The notes under the pieces are model-generated. The model saw only the letters and a list, made by a program, of their open reading frames with translations, searched no databases and was not told where the DNA came from. A stretch of DNA of 64,000 bases from Pseudobdellovibrionaceae bacterium (GTDB taxonomy: Bacteria; Bdellovibrionota; Bdellovibrionia; Bdellovibrionales; Bdellovibrionaceae). Where the stretch lies: the NCBI GenBank assembly GCA_016785955.1, contig JAEUWH010000087.1, forward strand, positions 62,001 through 126,000, written 5' to 3'. Position 1 is the stretch's first letter. Every line of letters begins with the position of its first letter. Of this stretch, positions 43,874 through 63,246 are shown piece after piece. Position numbers and translations under genes: made by a program.

Positions 43874-43884
43874 CTCTGTTGTCG

Positions 43885-45642
43885 ATGTCAGAGTCACGGC
43901 TTCTGCGGAGGCCTCTTCGTTATTTCATATCTAAAAATAAAAAGTCGTTTGGCATGGGTTTGACATTATTGTTGATCACCAATGCCTTGGACTCATCGAC
44001 GCCACTGGTTTTAAAAATGGCGATTGATACGATTTCGGCCGGCCGTTTTGAATCAGCCGAAATGCTTAAGATCGCTGGATTGTTTTTTCTGTTGATGTTG
44101 GTCCTGGCCAGTTCACGCTATGGGTGGCGGGTCTTTTGGAGTCATTATCACACGTCGGCGGCAGATGAGCTGCGGAACAAGATATTTCATCACTATTCGA
44201 TGATGGGTCCTAGATTTTTCACGAAAACTCCGGTTGGCAATATGATGAGCTTGATCGTTAATGATGTTCAATTTTTCAGGAACGGCATTGGTCCGGGCCT
44301 GCTGATCATTATTGATGGTGTAAGCCTGATTTTAATGATCATCCCGGCGATGTTGTACTTAAGTCCCAGTTGGACGTGGAAATGTTTGATTTTTATAGCG
44401 CTGACCCCGTTCTTTATCCATGCCATCACAAAAAAAATTGGATCATTGTCAAAAGAGCAGCAAGAACTGTTGGCACGTCTGACGAGCTTCACCCAAGAGC
44501 TTGTATCCGGAGTGAAAATTATAAAAATTTTTTCGATGGAAAAGCAACGCTCGCAGAAGTATCAGGAAATCAGTGAAGACTTTTTAAAGAAATCGAACCA
44601 TTTGAATCGTGTGGACTCGTTGTTCGGGCCGCTCATGCAAGTGGCCGTCGCTTCGGGTACCGTATTGCTTCTGTATGTTGGTGGTGGCGAGGTCATTGCT
44701 GGGGCGGCTACTTTGGGATCGTTTGTGGCGTTTCAGCGATATATAAATAAAATCATTTGGCCGTTTTCGGCATTGGGATACGGACTATCACAAATACAAA
44801 AAGGAAAAAGTGCATTCGAACGCATTCGCGCGGTTTTGCAACAACCAAAAGAGTTTCCCGAACTGTATGCCACACGAACTGATAGCGATTTAAGAGAAGT
44901 CGAGTCTATTGAGTTTAAGAATGTCGGATTTAAGTATGGAGAGATTGAAGTCTTAAAGCACATCAGTTTTGAAATGAAAAAGGGCGAATTCATTGGGGTT
45001 ATGGGGCCTGTAGGCTCGGGAAAATCGACGCTTCTTCATTTGATAGCGAATTATTTAGGACACTATTCGGGACAGATTTATATTAACGGCAAAGATTATG
45101 CTCAATTCCCGAAATCAGAAATTTGGAACGTGGTCAAAATCGTTCCTCAAGAGCCTTTTTTGTTCAGCGCTTCGGTGAAAGATAATGTTGTGTTATCGAC
45201 GCCGATGGAAGCAAATGATTTAGAGCAAATCATAGCGTTGATTGATTTTGATCGTGACCTTTCGGCCTTGAAATATGGAATTGAAACTCCGGTGGGGGAA
45301 AAAGGCGTGCAGTTGTCGGGTGGTCAAAAGCAACGCCTGACATTGGCGCGCGGTGTTTTTGCTAAACCTGGTGCTATTCTGCTGGATGATACGCTGAGTG
45401 CGTTGGACACGCGAACGGAAGCCAATGTTCGAGAGCATTTGTTTAAATCGAACGCGAATCAGATTCGTGTCATCGTGGCGAATAAAGTTCAATCCCTAAT
45501 GAACGCGGACAGAATCATTGTCCTGAACGAGGGTGAAATAGAAGCCATCGGGACTCACCAGCAATTGTTGGTGAAATCAAAATTTTATTCTAGGCAGTGG
45601 CAATTGCAGCGTATGGTCGAGGTGCAAAGTGATTCCGTCTAG
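43885..45642 (+). CDS. ABC exporter half-transporter, degenerate-site subunit
   Basis: 585 residues: six TM helices (~20-310) and an ATPase domain (~335-575). The Walker A motif is GPVGSGKST and the signature is the canonical LSGGQKQR. After Walker B the catalytic Glu is Asp (LLDDTLSALD). That is the pattern of the MdlA-type subunit of heterodimeric exporters such as MdlAB and TM287/288. An in-frame TTG at 43879 is an alternative start. The next gene overlaps it by 14 nt and supplies the partner. The exported substrate cannot be told from sequence. Confidence 0.9.
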   Translation: MSESRLLRRPLRYFISKNKKSFGMGLTLLLITNALDSSTPLVLKMAIDTISAGRFESAEMLKIAGLFFLLMLVLASSRYGWRVFWSHYHTSAADELRNKIFHHYSMMGPRFFTKTPVGNMMSLIVNDVQFFRNGIGPGLLIIIDGVSLILMIIPAMLYLSPSWTWKCLIFIALTPFFIHAITKKIGSLSKEQQELLARLTSFTQELVSGVKIIKIFSMEKQRSQKYQEISEDFLKKSNHLNRVDSLFGPLMQVAVASGTVLLLYVGGGEVIAGAATLGSFVAFQRYINKIIWPFSALGYGLSQIQKGKSAFERIRAVLQQPKEFPELYATRTDSDLREVESIEFKNVGFKYGEIEVLKHISFEMKKGEFIGVMGPVGSGKSTLLHLIANYLGHYSGQIYINGKDYAQFPKSEIWNVVKIVPQEPFLFSASVKDNVVLSTPMEANDLEQIIALIDFDRDLSALKYGIETPVGEKGVQLSGGQKQRLTLARGVFAKPGAILLDDTLSALDTRTEANVREHLFKSNANQIRVIVANKVQSLMNADRIIVLNEGEIEAIGTHQQLLVKSKFYSRQWQLQRMVEVQSDSV

Positions 45643-47422
45643 TGGTCTGTCCGAAGACAAGGAAACTACAGACAAGGAAACTACGCATCTTAACTATCGT
45701 CAGCTTTTTCAAAAGCTGAGTCCGTTCCTAAGTAATCGCAAAAGACATATACTGGGGGTTGTTTTTTTGGTGCTTGTGGCCGCTTTAAGTGGTCGGTTTA
45801 TTCCTTTTTTCATTGGCTACACCATCGACCATGCGATTCTTCAAAAAGATTGGGATTTGCTTGTGTATTGCACGCTTGGCTACGCATTTTTAGAGCTGCT
45901 GAATGCGGGGCTTGAGTTCATGCAGGTATTTTATTTTCAAAAACTAGGCAATCAAATCTTGCTGGATATTCGTGCCAAGATTTTGTTCGTTATTCAGCGG
46001 ATCCCCATGACTTATTTTAATAAAACCCCGGCGGGTCGTATCGTCACGCGTGCGACGAACGATGTTTCGCAGATTGGGGAAATTTTCAGTGATGGAGTGG
46101 TCAAGGTATTCATTCAATTCATCGTTTTGATTTCGATCGTTGTATCGATGATGTTGATTTCCGTTAAACTGACATTGATTTGTTTGATCACGACGCCGCT
46201 ATTTTTCTTTTTAGGTATCAAGGTGACCAATCGTATCCGTGAAACTCTGCGAACTTCTAAAATTGCAACTTCGGCGTTGAACTCGTTCATTGCCGAAAGT
46301 CTCAGTGGTATGAAAATCATCCAGATGTACCAGCTTTCAAAAAGGAAGATGCACGAGTTTCAAAAACTGTCAGATGATTTAAAGATTGTGTCTTTAAAAT
46401 CTGTAAAAAATTATGCGTTGATGATGCCGATCCTTAATATTTTCAATGGTTTGATTTTGGCAAGTGCTTTGTACTTTGGTGGATTTCTGGGGCAAGAGGA
46501 CGGTCTGAAGGTTGGCTTGATTGTTACGTTTTTTTTGCACGCTTTGGATTTTGTTCATCCGTTTCGTGAAATCATCGAAAAGTACCAGCAGTTTCAAAAC
46601 AGTTTAACCAGTGCCGAACGAGTCTTTACTCTTCTGGAAGAGCCAATCGAGCCGGGCTACACTATCGTGGAGGTGGTGCCACAAATGAATAGTTCGATTG
46701 AACTAAAGCATTTGGATTTTAGATACAGTGAAAATTCTCCAGCAATTTTAAAAGGTATTTCACTGGTGATTCCCCAGCGGCAATCTGTTGGGGTGGTCGG
46801 CAGAACGGGGGCTGGCAAATCCACGTTGGTGAATTTGCTTTTGAATCTGTATCCGCCGCCAAAGGATAAAGTTTTTATTGGTGGTCAGCCTATTGAATCC
46901 ATTCCGTTAAACCAACTCAGAAAACAGATCAATTGCGTGCAGCAGGATTTGTTTTTATTCAAAGGCACTGTTATGGAAAATTTAACTCTGGGCTCGGCCG
47001 AAATTCCGGTGGAACGGGTAGAACGTGTCGCCAGCGAAATTGGTTTGACGTCCTATTTGGCCAAGACGAATCGAAGTTTATCTTATATAGTCGAAGAGTC
47101 TGGGGCTAATTTAAGCACGGGTGAAAAACAACTGATATCTTTTGCACGTATTTTAATTTTTGATCCCGAGATCGTTATTCTTGACGAGGCGACCTCAAAT
47201 ATTGATTCTCATTTAGAGCAATTGTTACAGGCCGCTTCTAGAAAATTGATACAAAACCGTACGTCCATCGTCATTGCCCACAGGCTATCTACAATTTTTA
47301 ATTGTGATCGCATTGTGGTGCTAGACGACGGCCGAGTGATCGAAGATGGATCGCCACAAAAATTAGTATCCGAAGATTCCGTGTTTAAGCAAATGCTGGC
47401 AGATCAATCGTATCAAGAATAG
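45629..47422 (+). CDS. ABC exporter half-transporter, catalytic-site subunit
   Basis: 597 residues: six TM helices (~38-320) and an ATPase domain (~355-590) with Walker A GRTGAGKST and Walker B VILDEATSNID, which keeps the catalytic Glu. Its signature motif is LSTGEKQ, not LSGGQ. Paired with the upstream protein this makes one consensus and one degenerate ATP site, as expected for an MdlAB-like heterodimer. The GTG start overlaps the upstream gene and has GAGG six nt before it. A strong hairpin follows the stop. Confidence 0.9.
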   Translation: MIPSSGLSEDKETTDKETTHLNYRQLFQKLSPFLSNRKRHILGVVFLVLVAALSGRFIPFFIGYTIDHAILQKDWDLLVYCTLGYAFLELLNAGLEFMQVFYFQKLGNQILLDIRAKILFVIQRIPMTYFNKTPAGRIVTRATNDVSQIGEIFSDGVVKVFIQFIVLISIVVSMMLISVKLTLICLITTPLFFFLGIKVTNRIRETLRTSKIATSALNSFIAESLSGMKIIQMYQLSKRKMHEFQKLSDDLKIVSLKSVKNYALMMPILNIFNGLILASALYFGGFLGQEDGLKVGLIVTFFLHALDFVHPFREIIEKYQQFQNSLTSAERVFTLLEEPIEPGYTIVEVVPQMNSSIELKHLDFRYSENSPAILKGISLVIPQRQSVGVVGRTGAGKSTLVNLLLNLYPPPKDKVFIGGQPIESIPLNQLRKQINCVQQDLFLFKGTVMENLTLGSAEIPVERVERVASEIGLTSYLAKTNRSLSYIVEESGANLSTGEKQLISFARILIFDPEIVILDEATSNIDSHLEQLLQAASRKLIQNRTSIVIAHRLSTIFNCDRIVVLDDGRVIEDGSPQKLVSEDSVFKQMLADQSYQE

Positions 47423-47461: not shown

Positions 47462-50400
47462 TTATTTTACGCTTGCTCCGTAGAATCGCTTACACATCAA
47501 ATGATTGTTTGTCGTGACTTTTTCGACTTTATTAAGTTTGACAATTTGGTCGAATCGCATTTCATTGATTTCGCCTTTTTCCATTAATTCATCAGCGACA
47601 CGAACAACATCTGCCCAGCGCTCGGTGAGCGTTTTTTTAGCTAGGTCCATTCCTTCTTTGATAAGCTCCGTACGAGCGGTCTCCAGTTGTCGTCTCAGGG
47701 CTTCGCTCACGACGGGGTTGCCTTCGGAATTGATTTCAATGCCATAGAAGCGGTCATCAAGACCCATTTGAGTCAGTGCCTGATTGGCGAGAAGTCGGAT
47801 TTTCTTTAAGTCATTTGACCAACCACCCGTCATTTCATAACCCGCCATAGATTCCGCAATCGCTCCCGCCGCTAAACGAGCGATCTTGGCCACCACGATT
47901 GAACGTGTAAGGGCAACGTAGCCTTTGATCGGTTTCGGTCGGGCATAGCCAAGATATTGTATTTTTTCAGAACCGGTACCGCTTGTTCCACCACGGATCG
48001 TGATATAAGCGACTTTTTCACCCGTTATCTCCATAATATTCCCAACGGCGTGACCGGCTTCGTGGACGGCAGTGGTGTGTGCTGTCTTTTTATTCATCAA
48101 AACTTGTTCTTGTGCAAATTCAGTGACGTTTACATTCTTTCTGTAAACGGGTTTCGCATTCGACGGCGCATCTTTCCTGCTGATTTCAACTACGACATTG
48201 ACTTCACGGGGCGGCGTATTGTCGTCTAAATATGGTTTTTTTGTTTTGTTGTCCTCAATTTTAATTTCAAGGTTGTAGTCATCCATACGGCTCAAATCCA
48301 GGTCGCTTTCCAACAAGGCCAATTGAACTGCGCTACCTAGACGTTTATCAACAAACGTGCGAATTGATCGTACTCCACGAGAATGGGAAAAAAAACTTTC
48401 ACCCAATGAGGACACCAGTTCCGGTGAATACTTTATTTTAAGACCTTTATACTGTTCTTCTAGTGGTCTTATTTTACCTTGCAACATTTTAATTGAGATC
48501 TTTGTTAATTCAGATCTTAAAAGTGGTTTTGTAAGAAGGATGGCTGCTAAGCGACCCATCAGCGCCTCAGGAATTCCTTGTTCGATCAAATGTTCATGAA
48601 GGATTTCTTCCTTGTTTTTTGATTTCCAAATTTCTAAACGATCCTCGTCGGCAGAAGACCCAGCAAAAAAATGTTCACCATCATTGCCAGTCAATTGAAT
48701 AATGTGGTTAGTGAGGTCATATTCTTTGCCAGTCACGGGGCTGGTCCACGTGCCCCGATCTAGAATAGCGTAAAGCTTTTTAAATAGTTGGTTCTTCATG
48801 GCGCGATCTCGTCCACCCATATTCGAAGCTTCATCAAGTATCAATACACTGCCATCGGGATTGTTTCGCAGATATTTTTCAAACTCACTTTCTGCGCCGT
48901 CCAGGCCTTGCTGGAATTTAAGTGTAAAGTGATAGTCTGATGAAACATCGCCTAGATCCATAATGCCTGCGCGGTCAGGCGAGCCGAATACGCTTTCGGC
49001 AATGGCCAGACCCGTTTCCGTTTTCCCAGTCCCGGTTGTACCAATTGTCATGAAGGTAGTCGGATAATATCGAACCCCCTGAGCCATGTGATCCACTACC
49101 AGTTGATGGATGTTGTCTATCATTTCCTCTTGCCCGATAACTCGAGCAGTTAAGTTCTTGCGTAGGTCCTTCACTATTTTTCTTATTTTGGGATCGGCAA
49201 GGGGATTGCTGCTGATCGGTTGAGGCACATCAACATACACATCGTTGTTGATCACAAAATACCATTTATGGTCTTTGCTTTCTTTAAGTTCGACGTTAAG
49301 CTCTTGGACCAAATGAGGAAGCCACTTTCTGGAGATCAGGGCTTTGGCAACCCCGTCGACTAAGTCTTTAAATACGCCTTCGGCTCTTCGGTTCATCAAT
49401 CGACCATGGCTGTGAATGTTTACATTCACGGTGGCTAAGTAATCAATCGCTGCGTCAGAGATATTAAATTTAACACCGTTGTATTTTTTGGCCACGTCAT
49501 CATTTCGAAAGGCAATAGCCGAGCGCAGAATTCTTTTCAGTACAGGCTTAGTTAAAGGGCTTGAAAGTAGAAAGTCATCTATACGATTTAAAATTTCTTC
49601 CGGTAACAAATCGTTGTCGCCCGCTTTTTGTTTGGTTGTGAAAACTCTTTTTACTTCATCGGAAGTTACCTTTGCCATATAGTCGCGCAGTTGTTCATCC
49701 GTCCAATTTTTTGCATTTTCGGGGATCAATTGACGTGCCCCGCGATTGCTGGTGAGGACGATCAGTGTCTGACGGCCATTCAATTTTTCTCCGTTGCCGG
49801 CCGTGATTTCCCCTTTGTCGAAGAACTCCATCAAACGAGTGTAAATATACGGGTGCATTTTCTCGGCTTCGTTGAAAATGACGACACCGCGGCCGCCAGT
49901 TCGTCTCAGAAACTCGGTTAGCTCGCCTTTCTGATCGCCTTTCCACGCTTTTTCGGCATCTAAAAGTTTATGTGCCATTACCGAAGCCATTTCTTTATCT
50001 CCGGCGGCGTAGTCGTTACCATCGATCGTTAGAATAAACTGGGGATCGGCTAGTTTTTCTTTCGCCAGTTGTTCGGCAACAAACGATTTTCCCACACCAG
50101 ACGTTCCCGTGATCATAACGATTCTAGGCCGCGTCGAATTTTTGTCATCTAAAACGTGGGCATTACGAACCAATGCTTTCACTAAATGTTCTTGTCCAAA
50201 GACTTTTTGATTTAATTTTTCTTCTAACGCAGAATTCGCCGAGTATTCTCCCATCAATGATTCTAAACCCAGTTGAAAACCACTTTTCACAAGAACGAGG
50301 GCATGGGAAGAAGATTTTGAATCAAGCACTGCCGATGTTGTCGCCGAGCCCTGACCGATACGTCGGTAATGTTCGCCCACTTTTCCTAGAAATAAATGAG

Positions 50401-51013
50401 GATCCGTCACGGGTTTTATCTCTGAATAACCATCATTTGCTTCAAAGCGATTGAGGTCGATTTTAAGTTTACTTGGGTCAAACACAAAAGATTGTGGGCT
50501 TTGATCCAAGTACTTAGGCGTGGTGATGCGAATGCGATGACCGTCCGAGGCTCGCGTAATAATAACAGAGCTTTCACGAGGACTTTTTGCATGGAATGAA
50601 GTCACGGCATACAATTGTCCACTATCTTGAAAAACGGAATAGCTCCAGGCAACAACGCTTTGAAAACTGACCGGAAGTGGGACGATATAGCCTTCCTGCA
50701 TGACAAGAAAGCGGCGAATAGCTTTGTGATCAAGTTCATCTTCCACGATTACAGCCTCTATTTTTGCCTGGTTTGGACGGATCATTTTTATCGTGTCCTT
50801 AGACAGCAGCGGATAGAGCTTGTCACTGCTATCTTTAAAAGTGAATTCGTCAACGGTCAGCTTGATGGATGAGGCATTCAAAAATTTCGCGTAATTGAGG
50901 TACTCAATTTCTGCTAGCACCAAATTTGATAACATTAATATGGTCACCACGATCCACATTGGGAGGGAACTATGGCTATATATAGTACTGTTGTTACGAA
51001 CTGCTAACGTCAC
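47462..51013 (-). CDS. Double HSP100-type AAA+ / M41 metalloprotease chimera with N-terminal export or anchor signal
   Basis: 1183 residues. Residues ~18-34 form one hydrophobic segment with a possible signal-peptidase site (VLA before EIEY); ~35-240 is an unrecognised beta-rich domain. AAA1 (~270-500) has GTSGVGKS (303-310) and VVIFNEAE (377-384), where Asn replaces the Walker B Asp. AAA2 (~620-880) has GTTGTGKT (658-665) and VLILDEAS (723-730). Both resemble the D2 module of ClpA/ClpB. An FtsH-type M41 domain (~975-1150) follows, with HEAGH (984-988) and the third zinc ligand Asp1068 in GGWSNDL. The GTG at 51013 has AAGGAG six nt upstream; a GTG at 51028 would place it inside the gene. Domain calls are strong; location and role are open. 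Confidence 0.88.
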   Translation of the reverse strand: MTLAVRNNSTIYSHSSLPMWIVVTILMLSNLVLAEIEYLNYAKFLNASSIKLTVDEFTFKDSSDKLYPLLSKDTIKMIRPNQAKIEAVIVEDELDHKAIRRFLVMQEGYIVPLPVSFQSVVAWSYSVFQDSGQLYAVTSFHAKSPRESSVIITRASDGHRIRITTPKYLDQSPQSFVFDPSKLKIDLNRFEANDGYSEIKPVTDPHLFLGKVGEHYRRIGQGSATTSAVLDSKSSSHALVLVKSGFQLGLESLMGEYSANSALEEKLNQKVFGQEHLVKALVRNAHVLDDKNSTRPRIVMITGTSGVGKSFVAEQLAKEKLADPQFILTIDGNDYAAGDKEMASVMAHKLLDAEKAWKGDQKGELTEFLRRTGGRGVVIFNEAEKMHPYIYTRLMEFFDKGEITAGNGEKLNGRQTLIVLTSNRGARQLIPENAKNWTDEQLRDYMAKVTSDEVKRVFTTKQKAGDNDLLPEEILNRIDDFLLSSPLTKPVLKRILRSAIAFRNDDVAKKYNGVKFNISDAAIDYLATVNVNIHSHGRLMNRRAEGVFKDLVDGVAKALISRKWLPHLVQELNVELKESKDHKWYFVINNDVYVDVPQPISSNPLADPKIRKIVKDLRKNLTARVIGQEEMIDNIHQLVVDHMAQGVRYYPTTFMTIGTTGTGKTETGLAIAESVFGSPDRAGIMDLGDVSSDYHFTLKFQQGLDGAESEFEKYLRNNPDGSVLILDEASNMGGRDRAMKNQLFKKLYAILDRGTWTSPVTGKEYDLTNHIIQLTGNDGEHFFAGSSADEDRLEIWKSKNKEEILHEHLIEQGIPEALMGRLAAILLTKPLLRSELTKISIKMLQGKIRPLEEQYKGLKIKYSPELVSSLGESFFSHSRGVRSIRTFVDKRLGSAVQLALLESDLDLSRMDDYNLEIKIEDNKTKKPYLDDNTPPREVNVVVEISRKDAPSNAKPVYRKNVNVTEFAQEQVLMNKKTAHTTAVHEAGHAVGNIMEITGEKVAYITIRGGTSGTGSEKIQYLGYARPKPIKGYVALTRSIVVAKIARLAAGAIAESMAGYEMTGGWSNDLKKIRLLANQALTQMGLDDRFYGIEINSEGNPVVSEALRRQLETARTELIKEGMDLAKKTLTERWADVVRVADELMEKGEINEMRFDQIVKLNKVEKVTTNNHLMCKRFYGASVK

Positions 51014-51361
51014 ACGATTCTCCTTCACTCAACTTTTTCATTCAAAACTTCACTCAGCGTCTTTCACTGAAATTTGTCTCTGCTGTCTAAGAATTAGCCA
51101 GTTTACAAGGCTCACACGCTGTATAGAGTTTTAGATCAATGACAAAATAGACGTTGCGAAAATAATTCCACAACTGTCGTTTATGCATACAATTAGTATT
51201 TGTTATTTAGTCTGCTCTTTAGTCTGTTATCTATCTCTGGTGGAATTGAGCGATGGGGATTGAGCGATAAATTGCGGAGTAGCACGCTTGAGGTGTTGAT
51301 TAAAAGATGACTCAGTCGATACAGTTTCATACTTCAATAGCAAATAACGGCGCAATTTTTA
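51014..51361. other. 348-nt gap upstream of AAA-M41 gene with short direct repeats
   Basis: No gene is supported here. ATTGAGCGAT is repeated at 51245-51254 and 51259-51268 (14-nt period), and TTTAGTCTG at 51206-51214 and 51218-51226 (12-nt period). CTTCACTCA-like triplicates lie near 51024-51070, next to the ribosome-binding site. The region must hold the promoter of the AAA-M41 gene, but I see no boxes with good spacing. The repeats are the only notable structure and could be binding sites for an activator. Confidence 0.45.
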
Positions 51362-52108
51362 TCAGATGAAGCGATGGCTGTACCAATTTTTTTCTTTGGC
51401 AATTTGTTGAAGATTGTACTCTGTTTTATAAAGACGATCTTCACGATTGGCGGCGCTGACCGCCAGTTTTATGTGAGTTGCGTACTCCAAGAGTTCAACG
51501 TCACCTTCCGAATTACCGGCGGCCAAAAAAGGCGTGATCGTGTTGTTTTGTTGGTAGCCTTGTACTTTGCCAGCTCGATATGTAATCACTCCATTTTTTT
51601 GGTCTGTAATGATTCCCTGATTTACGATTGTTTCTACGCCAATCACGGCAGAGTTGTCCAAGCCCAGTGCTCGGGCGCCGGGTTGAACCGCCCACGTGAT
51701 AGAAGCCGTGATGATTTTGATTGTGACGTTATTTTGTTTTAGAAGATCGATCAGTTTTTTCTGTTCCTCGAAAATGGGAAATGGCACCAAGCTGTTTAAA
51801 GCTTGATCGGCCCATGTCTGTATTTGGGTCAGTGGAAGACCTTTGTATATTTGCGCCAACCAAAGATAGGCGTCTTTTGGATCTCCATTCTTTTTCTTGA
51901 GTTCCAAGTAATGTTTCCAGGGGTTTGGGGGCAATGGAACTAGACGATTGTCTATTGTGTAGTGGAATAGATTTTCACCCAGATCGGTATCCCAAAGCGT
52001 TCCATCGGCGTCAAAGAGTGCAACTAAAGGAGATCGATTTTTCTTGAGTTCCGCTAAAGTTTCATTTAACTGTTCCCAAAACGTTTGGGGATAAGATTTA
52101 TATTTCAT
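51362..52108 (-). CDS. HAD-superfamily phosphatase (phosphoserine-phosphatase-like)
   Basis: 248 residues. Motif I is FDADGTLW with nucleophile Asp33 and acid/base Asp35; motif II is the ITASI segment; motif IV is GNSEGDVELLE. The helical cap between motifs I and II is like the HAD-IB (SerB-type) group. It should hydrolyse a small phosphorylated compound; the substrate is not evident. It is separated by 348 nt from the AAA-M41 gene downstream and is divergent from the GNAT-like gene across 61 nt. Confidence 0.82.
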   Translation of the reverse strand: MKYKSYPQTFWEQLNETLAELKKNRSPLVALFDADGTLWDTDLGENLFHYTIDNRLVPLPPNPWKHYLELKKKNGDPKDAYLWLAQIYKGLPLTQIQTWADQALNSLVPFPIFEEQKKLIDLLKQNNVTIKIITASITWAVQPGARALGLDNSAVIGVETIVNQGIITDQKNGVITYRAGKVQGYQQNNTITPFLAAGNSEGDVELLEYATHIKLAVSAANREDRLYKTEYNLQQIAKEKNWYSHRFI

Positions 52109-61989: not shown

Positions 61990-63246
61990 ATGAAACCTAT
62001 TCGAATGATTTTGAAATTTTCAGTCATAGTTGGTTGTCTGCTTACGGGCAGTTGTGCCACTTATCAGAGTAAAGTCTTTAAGTCCCGTGAACTGGTCGAG
62101 TCGGGGCAAATTTCTGAAGCCGTTAAAAATCTTAAAACTTTTGCTGATCAGCCAGGCGATGACCAGCTGATTTATGTGCTCGACTATGCGACGTTGCTGC
62201 AATACTCCGGTGATTTGACGGAAAGTAATCAGTATTTTTTCAAAGCCTTGAAACTAATTGATCAGTTTGACTATCAATCTATTAGTCGTGTAACGGGGTC
62301 ATTACTTTTTAATGAAGAAATGGTTCAATATAAGGGTGACACGTTCGAGAAGATATTTGTGAATGCCTATTTAGCGCTTAATTTTTTAGAACTCAATGAC
62401 TTGGACTCGGCTTTGGTGGAATCACGTCGAATCAATCAAAAATATCAAGTGTATCGACAAGAAGAAAAAAAGAATTTTGAGATGAATTCTTTTGCCAGTT
62501 ATTTATCGGCGATGATTTGGGAGGCTGATAAAAAATATGATGATGCTTATTTGGCGTTTCTTGAAGCGTATAAGATAGATTCTAATGTAGGGCAGATTCA
62601 CGAAGATCTGATTCGTACGGCTCGTAAAGCGCAGAGAATGGATGAGTACAAGAAATGGAAAAGCCAATTCCCACAAGTGAAAGAGGATCCGCGTTGGTAT
62701 GATTCGTCTTTAGCAGATGTAATCATTATTTTTCAAAATGGTTGGGGTGCGCGAAAGGATTTCAATCCACAGAGTCCTCGGTTTCCAATTCTAAAATCAG
62801 TTTATTCGGAAAGTCGCAATGCCCGTATTAGCATCGAGCCCCTAGGTAAAAATGGAACACCTTATCTAGATCAAACGGCGTTTGTATACAGTGTTGACGA
62901 TGCCTCCATACGAACATTAGTTGAAGATCAGGGGTCGCTAGTTGCCCGTCGCTTAACTGGTGTCGTTGCGAAAGAGGTCGCGGCTGATCAGATTCGCCAA
63001 AAAAACGAATTACTTGGATTGGTGGCACAAATTGCTATGCATGCTTCTGATCGTGCGGATTTGCGTCAGTGGTCATTTCTTCCCAGGGAATTTCAAATGG
63101 CCCGTATTCGCGTAAAGCCAGGTAAATACAATTTAAGATTAACGACACAAAATCGTTATTCAGAAACCGCAGCTGGTGGTTTGTCTGAAAAAGAATTTGA
63201 AATCAAAGCGGGCAAAACACGATTTTTTAATTGGCGTCGATTTTAG
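61990..63246 (+). CDS. COG3014-type TPR lipoprotein
   Basis: 418 residues from the ATG at 61990, which puts the lipobox LTGSC (Cys22) at the right distance; a TTG at 61975 is possible but not needed. The N-terminal half is helical with TPR-like repeats (~35-210); the C-terminal half is a beta-rich domain (~225-418) with the family-typical GTPYLDQTAFVYSVDDASIRTLVEDQGSLVARRL region. COG3014 proteins are uncharacterised and often encoded beside LpoB-like genes. Its stop is 2 nt from that of the convergent barrel-like gene. Confidence 0.78.
   Translation: MKPIRMILKFSVIVGCLLTGSCATYQSKVFKSRELVESGQISEAVKNLKTFADQPGDDQLIYVLDYATLLQYSGDLTESNQYFFKALKLIDQFDYQSISRVTGSLLFNEEMVQYKGDTFEKIFVNAYLALNFLELNDLDSALVESRRINQKYQVYRQEEKKNFEMNSFASYLSAMIWEADKKYDDAYLAFLEAYKIDSNVGQIHEDLIRTARKAQRMDEYKKWKSQFPQVKEDPRWYDSSLADVIIIFQNGWGARKDFNPQSPRFPILKSVYSESRNARISIEPLGKNGTPYLDQTAFVYSVDDASIRTLVEDQGSLVARRLTGVVAKEVAADQIRQKNELLGLVAQIAMHASDRADLRQWSFLPREFQMARIRVKPGKYNLRLTTQNRYSETAAGGLSEKEFEIKAGKTRFFNWRRF

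Follow-up and report, generated by a model that had tools for sequence, protein, structure and literature searches.

Where would an ATP-dependent unfoldase-protease work when its motor and its protease share one chain behind an N-terminus of signal type? The question is raised by a gene in a 64,000-nucleotide stretch of DNA (the window) of contig JAEUWH010000087.1 from Pseudobdellovibrionaceae bacterium (assembly GCA_016785955.1, forward-strand positions 62,001 to 126,000), which encodes two Clp-type AAA+ modules joined to an FtsH-type peptidase M41 domain. We rate as somewhat better than even the chance that the product is a Sec-exported unfoldase-protease that works outside the producer's cytoplasm, most plausibly on prey material and with prey ATP. 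The elements on which this reading draws are the following:

47462..51013, minus strand: coding sequence of the predicted exported AAA-AAA-M41 protein, 1183 aa plus stop, GTG start (open frame; family)
51020..51025, minus strand: Shine-Dalgarno sequence AAGGAG, 6 nt 5' of GTG 51013 (read in the sequence)
50912..51013, minus strand: Sec-type signal segment, residues 1-34, predicted cleavage VLA^EIEY (hydropathy and a rule-based scan with controls)
50441..50911, minus strand: N-terminal beta-rich domain, residues ~35-191 (AlphaFold models, moderate confidence)
49229..50248, minus strand: AAA1, ClpB-D2-like, residues ~256-595, Walker A GTSGVGKS, Walker B IFNEAE
48167..49195, minus strand: AAA2, ClpB-D2-like, residues ~607-949, Walker A GTTGTGKT, Walker B LILDEA, sensor Asn, Arg finger
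47543..48097, minus strand: peptidase M41 domain, residues 973-1157 (Pfam, 2e-16; FtsH structures by profile, 6e-19)
48050..48064, minus strand: HEAGH zinc-binding and catalytic motif, residues 984-988 (family core alignment)
47810..47812, minus strand: third zinc ligand Asp1068, in GGWSNDL (family core alignment)
47477..47497, minus strand: C-terminal cysteine tag MCKRFYG, residues 1173-1179 (family comparison; own-genome motif)

The gene is genuine and lies on the minus strand; because its frame is open over 1,183 codons, chance does not account for it. Full-length relatives at 60% identity and a large family exclude both a chance open reading frame (ORF) or frameshift artefact and a unique chimera created by misassembly. 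The longest mechanical ORF begins at GTG 51028, but GTG 51013 is the better predicted start, since a perfect AAGGAG lies 6 nt ahead of it; the start given in the initial annotation is thereby borne out. The gene is present in a single copy in its genome, beside ordinary ClpB-, ClpA- and FtsH-like genes.

The initial annotation had described two ClpA/ClpB-D2-like modules and an FtsH-type M41 protease in one chain, and this architecture was recovered by Pfam, by profile comparison and by superposition of an AlphaFold model. Pfam finds AAA_2 twice (4e-26), ClpB_D2-small at 833-905 and Peptidase_M41, the last (PF01434) at 60.6 bits against a curated cut-off of 29.9. NCBIfam models indicate likeness to the second module of ClpB/ClpV, and the cut-offs of both the ClpB and the FtsH equivalog remain unreached: the ClpB model scores 147.6 bits against 1232, the best stretch of AAA1 aligning with its D2 part, and the FtsH model (TIGR01241) scores 52.6 bits against 600, with a match only at 968-1151. 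A profile of the AAA2 and M41 core matches ClpC/ClpB D2 structures with its first part (7e-41) and FtsH structures with its last part (6e-19). The AlphaFold model has a mean predicted local distance difference test score (pLDDT) of 76, mostly 80-90 in the AAA and M41 parts. In VIA-align, its residues ~265-953 (in a 1188-residue numbering) superpose on ClpC/ClpB with Z scores of 25-29 (up to 28.7); AAA2 taken by itself superposes on ClpB D2 with Z 28 and a root-mean-square deviation of 2.6 Å. The matches listed by the structure search were Clp chains and bear on the AAA part; the M41 domain is identified by sequence. A low-confidence linker (residues ~192-252) follows the beta-rich N-domain in the models, and Foldseek returned no match for the N-domain at E ≤ 0.001 that would assign it to a known fold.

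The protein thus combines traits of two machines. Like FtsH and the i-AAA and m-AAA proteases (M41 in MEROPS), it unites AAA+ and M41 in a single chain, with the HExxH motif and a distal Asp ligand, behind a membrane-targeting N-terminus. Unlike them, it has two ClpB-D2-type AAA+ modules in place of one classical AAA, a terminal Cys tag, and one cleavable-looking segment with the catalytic part predicted outside, whereas FtsH has two N-terminal transmembrane segments around a periplasmic domain and its catalytic part inside. With the HSP100 proteins ClpB, ClpC and ClpA it shares two AAA+ modules that align with a ClpB-type D2. In contrast to these, which lack a signal peptide and work with a separate ClpP (recruited by ClpA, ClpC and ClpX through an IGF/IGL loop), both of its modules are D2-like and its protease is fused in cis.

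Both active centres are conserved. All 53 aligned family cores have the catalytic Glu, 52 have the zinc-binding His pair and 51 have the distal Asp; in the last AAA module, the Walker A Lys is present in all 51 cores with letters at that position, and the Walker B Glu, sensor-1 Asn and Arg finger in 53 of 53. Since these residues are almost always kept, both the ATPase and the protease activity appear to be under selection. The one clear exception, L159, lacks the M41 triad, and L198 is gapped at the Asp position. The intact M41 site (HEAGH plus Asp1068) of the initial annotation aligns with the M41 site, its region aligns with true FtsH proteases rather than with a non-protease, and HExxH and Asp are retained in close and distant relatives alike. 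An M41 look-alike or pseudoenzyme is ruled out by the match to the FtsH-structure profile together with the kept catalytic residues. The previously noted Asn in place of the Walker B Asp in AAA1, next to a canonical AAA2, was likewise confirmed by reading and alignment. The same Asn occupies the Walker B of the penultimate AAA in most members of this part of the tree (some have Asp), and in these alignments it is a common clade feature and no local defect. Separately, two large family-related AAA proteins (L192:7435-12102 and L198:5471-10171) have a diverged M41 region and retain the tag Cys; a pattern search of both found no plain HExxH.

The N-terminus carries one hydrophobic segment (residues ~17-34) with Arg6 ahead of it and VLA^EIEY behind it, and a hydropathy scan over the full length gave no second transmembrane segment; the same scan finds two in the cell's own FtsH (L058). 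Most family members likewise lack an additional segment, with weak extra matches in L038, L047 and L051. A home-made rule that requires N-terminal net positive charge, a hydrophobic core and a small-x-small site was, in its strict form, positive in 34 of 47 family members and in 1 of 29 Clp/FtsH-type control ORFs, the sole positive control being an FtsH with a real transmembrane segment. Among the rule-negative members, L045, L049 and L188 have a signal that is clear by eye, and several others are fragments. Because the segments of relatives, diverged ones included, end in AxA-type sites, the N-terminus is better read as a cleavable signal peptide than as an anchor. Of the earlier wording "signal or anchor" the signal part therefore stands and the anchor part is disfavoured. 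The single segment with its possible signal-peptidase site and the predicted extracytoplasmic topology agree with the position of Arg6 and with the recurrence of signals in the family.

A second and partly independent argument for export comes from the C-terminus. Cys1174, in the tag MCKRFYG, is the sole Cys of the protein. Leaving out one fusion, a Cys lies within the last 31 residues of all 52 family members, and in 35 of the 52 it is the only Cys after residue 70. The sequence around it varies by genome (CxxFYG, SCKSLF, CADLL) and recurs on adjacent proteins: L040 has NRCADLLS both at the C-terminal end of the protease and at the mature N-terminus of its neighbour, L178 has ASCKSLF/GSCKSLF on the protease and an adjoining exported protein, and L179 has CADLLK likewise. 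The companions in L040, L042 and L178 contain no Cys besides that of the tag. In L181, an AAA-AAA-AAA-M41 protein is fused to its companion, and the junction is without Cys. The companion and fusion sequences fit an intermolecular link between tags, without proving it. A similar end tag, SCSRYFH, was also seen on a signal-bearing ClpB-like protein without M41 (L059:8927-11581).

To follow the tag beyond the gene, C-x-x-F-Y-[G/S/R] was searched in the protein's own genome and nearly all matches were read in context; the pattern was picked after the protease tags of the clade had been seen and before the other matches were read. Among ORFs of at least 100 aa there were 24 in-frame matches, 23 of them terminal (12 are at most 75 residues from the start of the ORF and almost always follow a signal peptide, and 11 are at most 16 residues from the C-terminus; the remaining one lies elsewhere, in a membrane protein), where position alone predicts about 7. 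Among ORFs of at least 200 aa, 20 of 21 were terminal against 4 expected, and one million simulations reached 14 at most. For the control pattern C-x-x-Y-F, of which 30 of 52 sites were read, both matches were internal and neither terminal (0/2). About 20 other proteins that appear exported thus carry the tag at the C-terminus or the mature N-terminus (loci L299, L301, L312, L315, L318, L320, L327, L328, L332, L334, L342-L346 and L353-L356 of the own genome); short tagged ORFs, for example L308, are doubtful. Most have one Cys in the mature part, and others an extra close Cys pair. Pfam assigns S8 (L354), S41 with PDZ (L328), GDPD (L327), UDPGP (L315), AAA+ (L356) and ABC1 kinase with M48 (L332); the remaining tagged proteins have no notable match. 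The last named (L332:188-5371), a 1728-aa predicted exported protein with the tag YCKKFYG, combines a Peptidase_M48 match with an ABC1/UbiB-type kinase. Since the tag is common to classical exported enzymes, it supports export of the protease. That the tag is limited to the protease's own gene neighbourhood was overturned, for this genome, by the whole-genome search. The enrichment appeared only with the genome-specific CxxFY[GSR]: a loose motif, C..h, showed none in 370 kb, and a 398-kb sample of a protease-free genome of genus g6 held no such tag, only lipoprotein-like and scattered cases.

Elsewhere in the family, the proteins next to the protease point the same way. A companion with an FGE-sulfatase domain adjoins it in three loci (L040:12459-15629, L042:11823-15131, L043:3049-6195), is multi-copy in G012 and is the fused partner in L181 (4742-11731); no match to it was found in the window's genome at E ≤ 1e-6. 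By eye, this companion also has a nucleotidyltransferase-like GG...DxD motif. Signal-bearing proteins beside proteases of a second, diverged subgroup include SpoVR with DUF444 (L053:2683-5844), AAA_2 (L047:15696-18464) and, in L186 (7398-10595 and 17438-19900), a circularly permuted ATP-grasp protein and a weak PrkA-like match. With the signal peptides of these neighbours judged by a simple home-made rule or by eye, enzymes of nucleoside triphosphate (NTP) type that are usually cytoplasmic look exported alongside the protease.

The protein belongs to a family that we recognise by the AAA2 and M41 core, a signal-type N-terminus and a C-terminal Cys tag, all three of which it has. Of 369 Bdellovibrionota genomes, 35 match the core profile at E ≤ 1e-70, and these span several families and at least two classes. 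Named relatives are Bdellovibrionales bacterium clean15, of the order to which the window's genome belongs, and Oligoflexia bacterium SJ240, of its class. In a set of 100 relatives, long matches to the protein occur in about a dozen genomes other than its own, most of them spanning both AAA modules and M41, and the distribution is patchy even inside genera. A pattern scan of all GTDB gave, among the matches listed, at least three long family matches, the rest lying mostly over the Clp-type part. At E ≤ 1e-50 the profile, which does match in Bdellovibrionota genomes, found nothing among 297 genomes from the phylum to which L078 belongs (an Acidobacteria metagenome-assembled genome, MAG) or among 398 from that of L106 (Mesorhizobium). 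The family thus appears, so far, to be found only in Bdellovibrionota, and import from other phyla was rejected on these 297 and 398 genomes. One (L046, 865 aa), two (as here) or three AAA modules precede M41, the three-AAA form running ClpB-D1-like, D2-like, last AAA, M41. The second subgroup (1250-1450 aa) conserves the last AAA, often with G-x-S-S-T-G-K-T, and M41. In a midpoint-rooted FastTree of the core, read without support values, the two-AAA clade of the protein is nested among three-AAA forms, so that loss of the first module in this clade would be the simpler reading. The initial annotation knew of no described protein with this domain order; the protein is a member of a family and not a unique chimera, but no published description of the architecture, or of the Cys tag, was found in the searchable literature, whose incomplete coverage makes this weak evidence of novelty.

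How might such a protein work? An extracytoplasmic location is predicted because two partly independent lines, the signal segment and the tag shared with exported enzymes, lead to it. The signal peptide would take the chain over the inner membrane and then be cut off. The mature protein would assemble as a hexamer, its two ClpB-D2-like AAA+ rings stacked upon a ring of M41 zinc-protease domains, in which AAA2 would hydrolyse ATP and thread substrate into the M41 chamber, and AAA1, given its Walker B Asn, would bind ATP and may hydrolyse it slowly. Unfolding by the rings and cutting in the M41 ring would follow from the known families. The most plausible site is a prey-derived compartment, into which ATP and proteins would leak from dying prey; there the enzyme may digest prey proteins or disarm prey machines. 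Such a compartment is also the most plausible ATP source: in Bdellovibrio bacteriovorus a Sec signal peptide suffices to bring NanoLuc into the culture supernatant (PMC12622784), the release of the contents of prey into the prey periplasm is described for Bdellovibrio (PMC4289276), and a Bdellovibrio ATP transport system has been reported (Ruby & McCabe 1986, as cited in PMC4834554). The C-terminal tag would be a docking, delivery or covalent-linking signal common to exported partners, possibly joined by an intermolecular disulfide. More tentatively, and at a strength that we would put clearly short of even, Bdellovibrionota may possess a hitherto undescribed terminal address system, in which a one-Cys tag set by the genome sits at either end of Sec-exported proteins, ATP/NTP machines such as this protease included, and either joins them to an extracytoplasmic complex, by docking or by a disulfide, or sends them into prey, where they would run on prey ATP.

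Several points weigh against work outside the cell on prey. No extracytoplasmic ATP source was identified, and a search for PF03219 (Plastid/Rickettsia-type ATP/ADP translocase) gave no match even in its controls and so carries no weight either way. The signal calls come from a home-made scan and not from SignalP, and bear on sequence and not on actual cleavage. We infer that the source organism is predatory from its order, with a named Bdellovibrionales MAG. In g6, the family's best-sampled genus, most sampled genomes show ClpB-type matches only, so the protein is accessory. Finally, reading of the neighbour genes in the window's genome revealed no exported partner adjoining the protease gene; its neighbours are:

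43879-47422, plus strand: two ABC-transporter half genes, convergent to the protease gene
51362-52108, minus strand: HAD phosphatase

The evidence for export and activity would be identical if the protein were an envelope quality-control protease of the cell's own periplasm, comparable to i-AAA or SKD3, supplied with ATP by an unspecified route and unrelated to prey. The human Clp-type disaggregase CLPB/SKD3, whose structures are among the structural matches of AAA1, works in the intermembrane space (PMC9934407). A patchy family that is accessory even inside genera is unlike housekeeping, which makes this account an unlikely one. It also needs ATP in the periplasm, and we know of no such supply in bacteria. 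ATP is plentiful inside the cell, and the M41 domain is most closely related to FtsH; both would suit a membrane-anchored, cytoplasm-facing protease that keeps its hydrophobic segment uncut as an anchor and has its N-terminus outside. We regard this as quite improbable, since the single segment, with positive charge on its N-terminal side and an AxA-type site, recurs in diverged relatives, unlike the two segments of FtsH, since S8, S41 and GDPD proteins that follow signal peptides bear the tag as well, and since other Cys residues are nearly absent from family proteins. The Asn of AAA1, together with the second subgroup, in which the region ahead of the last AAA has no recognisable Walker A, could also suggest that the AAA modules are a mere oligomer scaffold, with no motor outside the cell and an ATP-independent M41. 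This is very improbable: practically all members with letters at these positions keep the sensor-1 Asn, the Arg finger and both Walker motifs of AAA2, as would be unexpected without ATP use.

For the favoured reading, an exported unfoldase-protease, the nearest analogues are the human CLPB/SKD3 and the Plasmodium HSP101 of PTEX, Clp-type motors outside the cytosol that are both among the structural matches; these differ in being eukaryotic and in lacking a protease domain. In their compartments ATP is supplied by the mitochondrion or the host. For the tag, the nearest are encapsulation (cargo-loading) peptides, MYXO-CTERM and PEP-CTERM, which direct a set of proteins to a common destination through a short peptide at the terminus; encapsulation peptides may occur at either end. 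The Cys-tagged proteins differ in carrying Sec-type signals, and their tag has one Cys and no transmembrane helix and varies by genome.

The domains themselves are known; what appears to be new, within the searchable but incomplete literature, is their combination as an exported, Bdellovibrionota-restricted family. The tag system would be of a new kind, if it holds. It is assumed of ATP-dependent unfoldase-proteases that they operate where the cell has its own ATP, and a family with intact motor and protease sites behind predicted signal peptides, in a phylum known for living in or on other bacteria, makes the question of AAA+ machines run outside their own cytoplasm directly testable. The tag in turn would help to sort exported proteins into those that belong together and would predict, genome by genome, candidate factors of predation or of the envelope.

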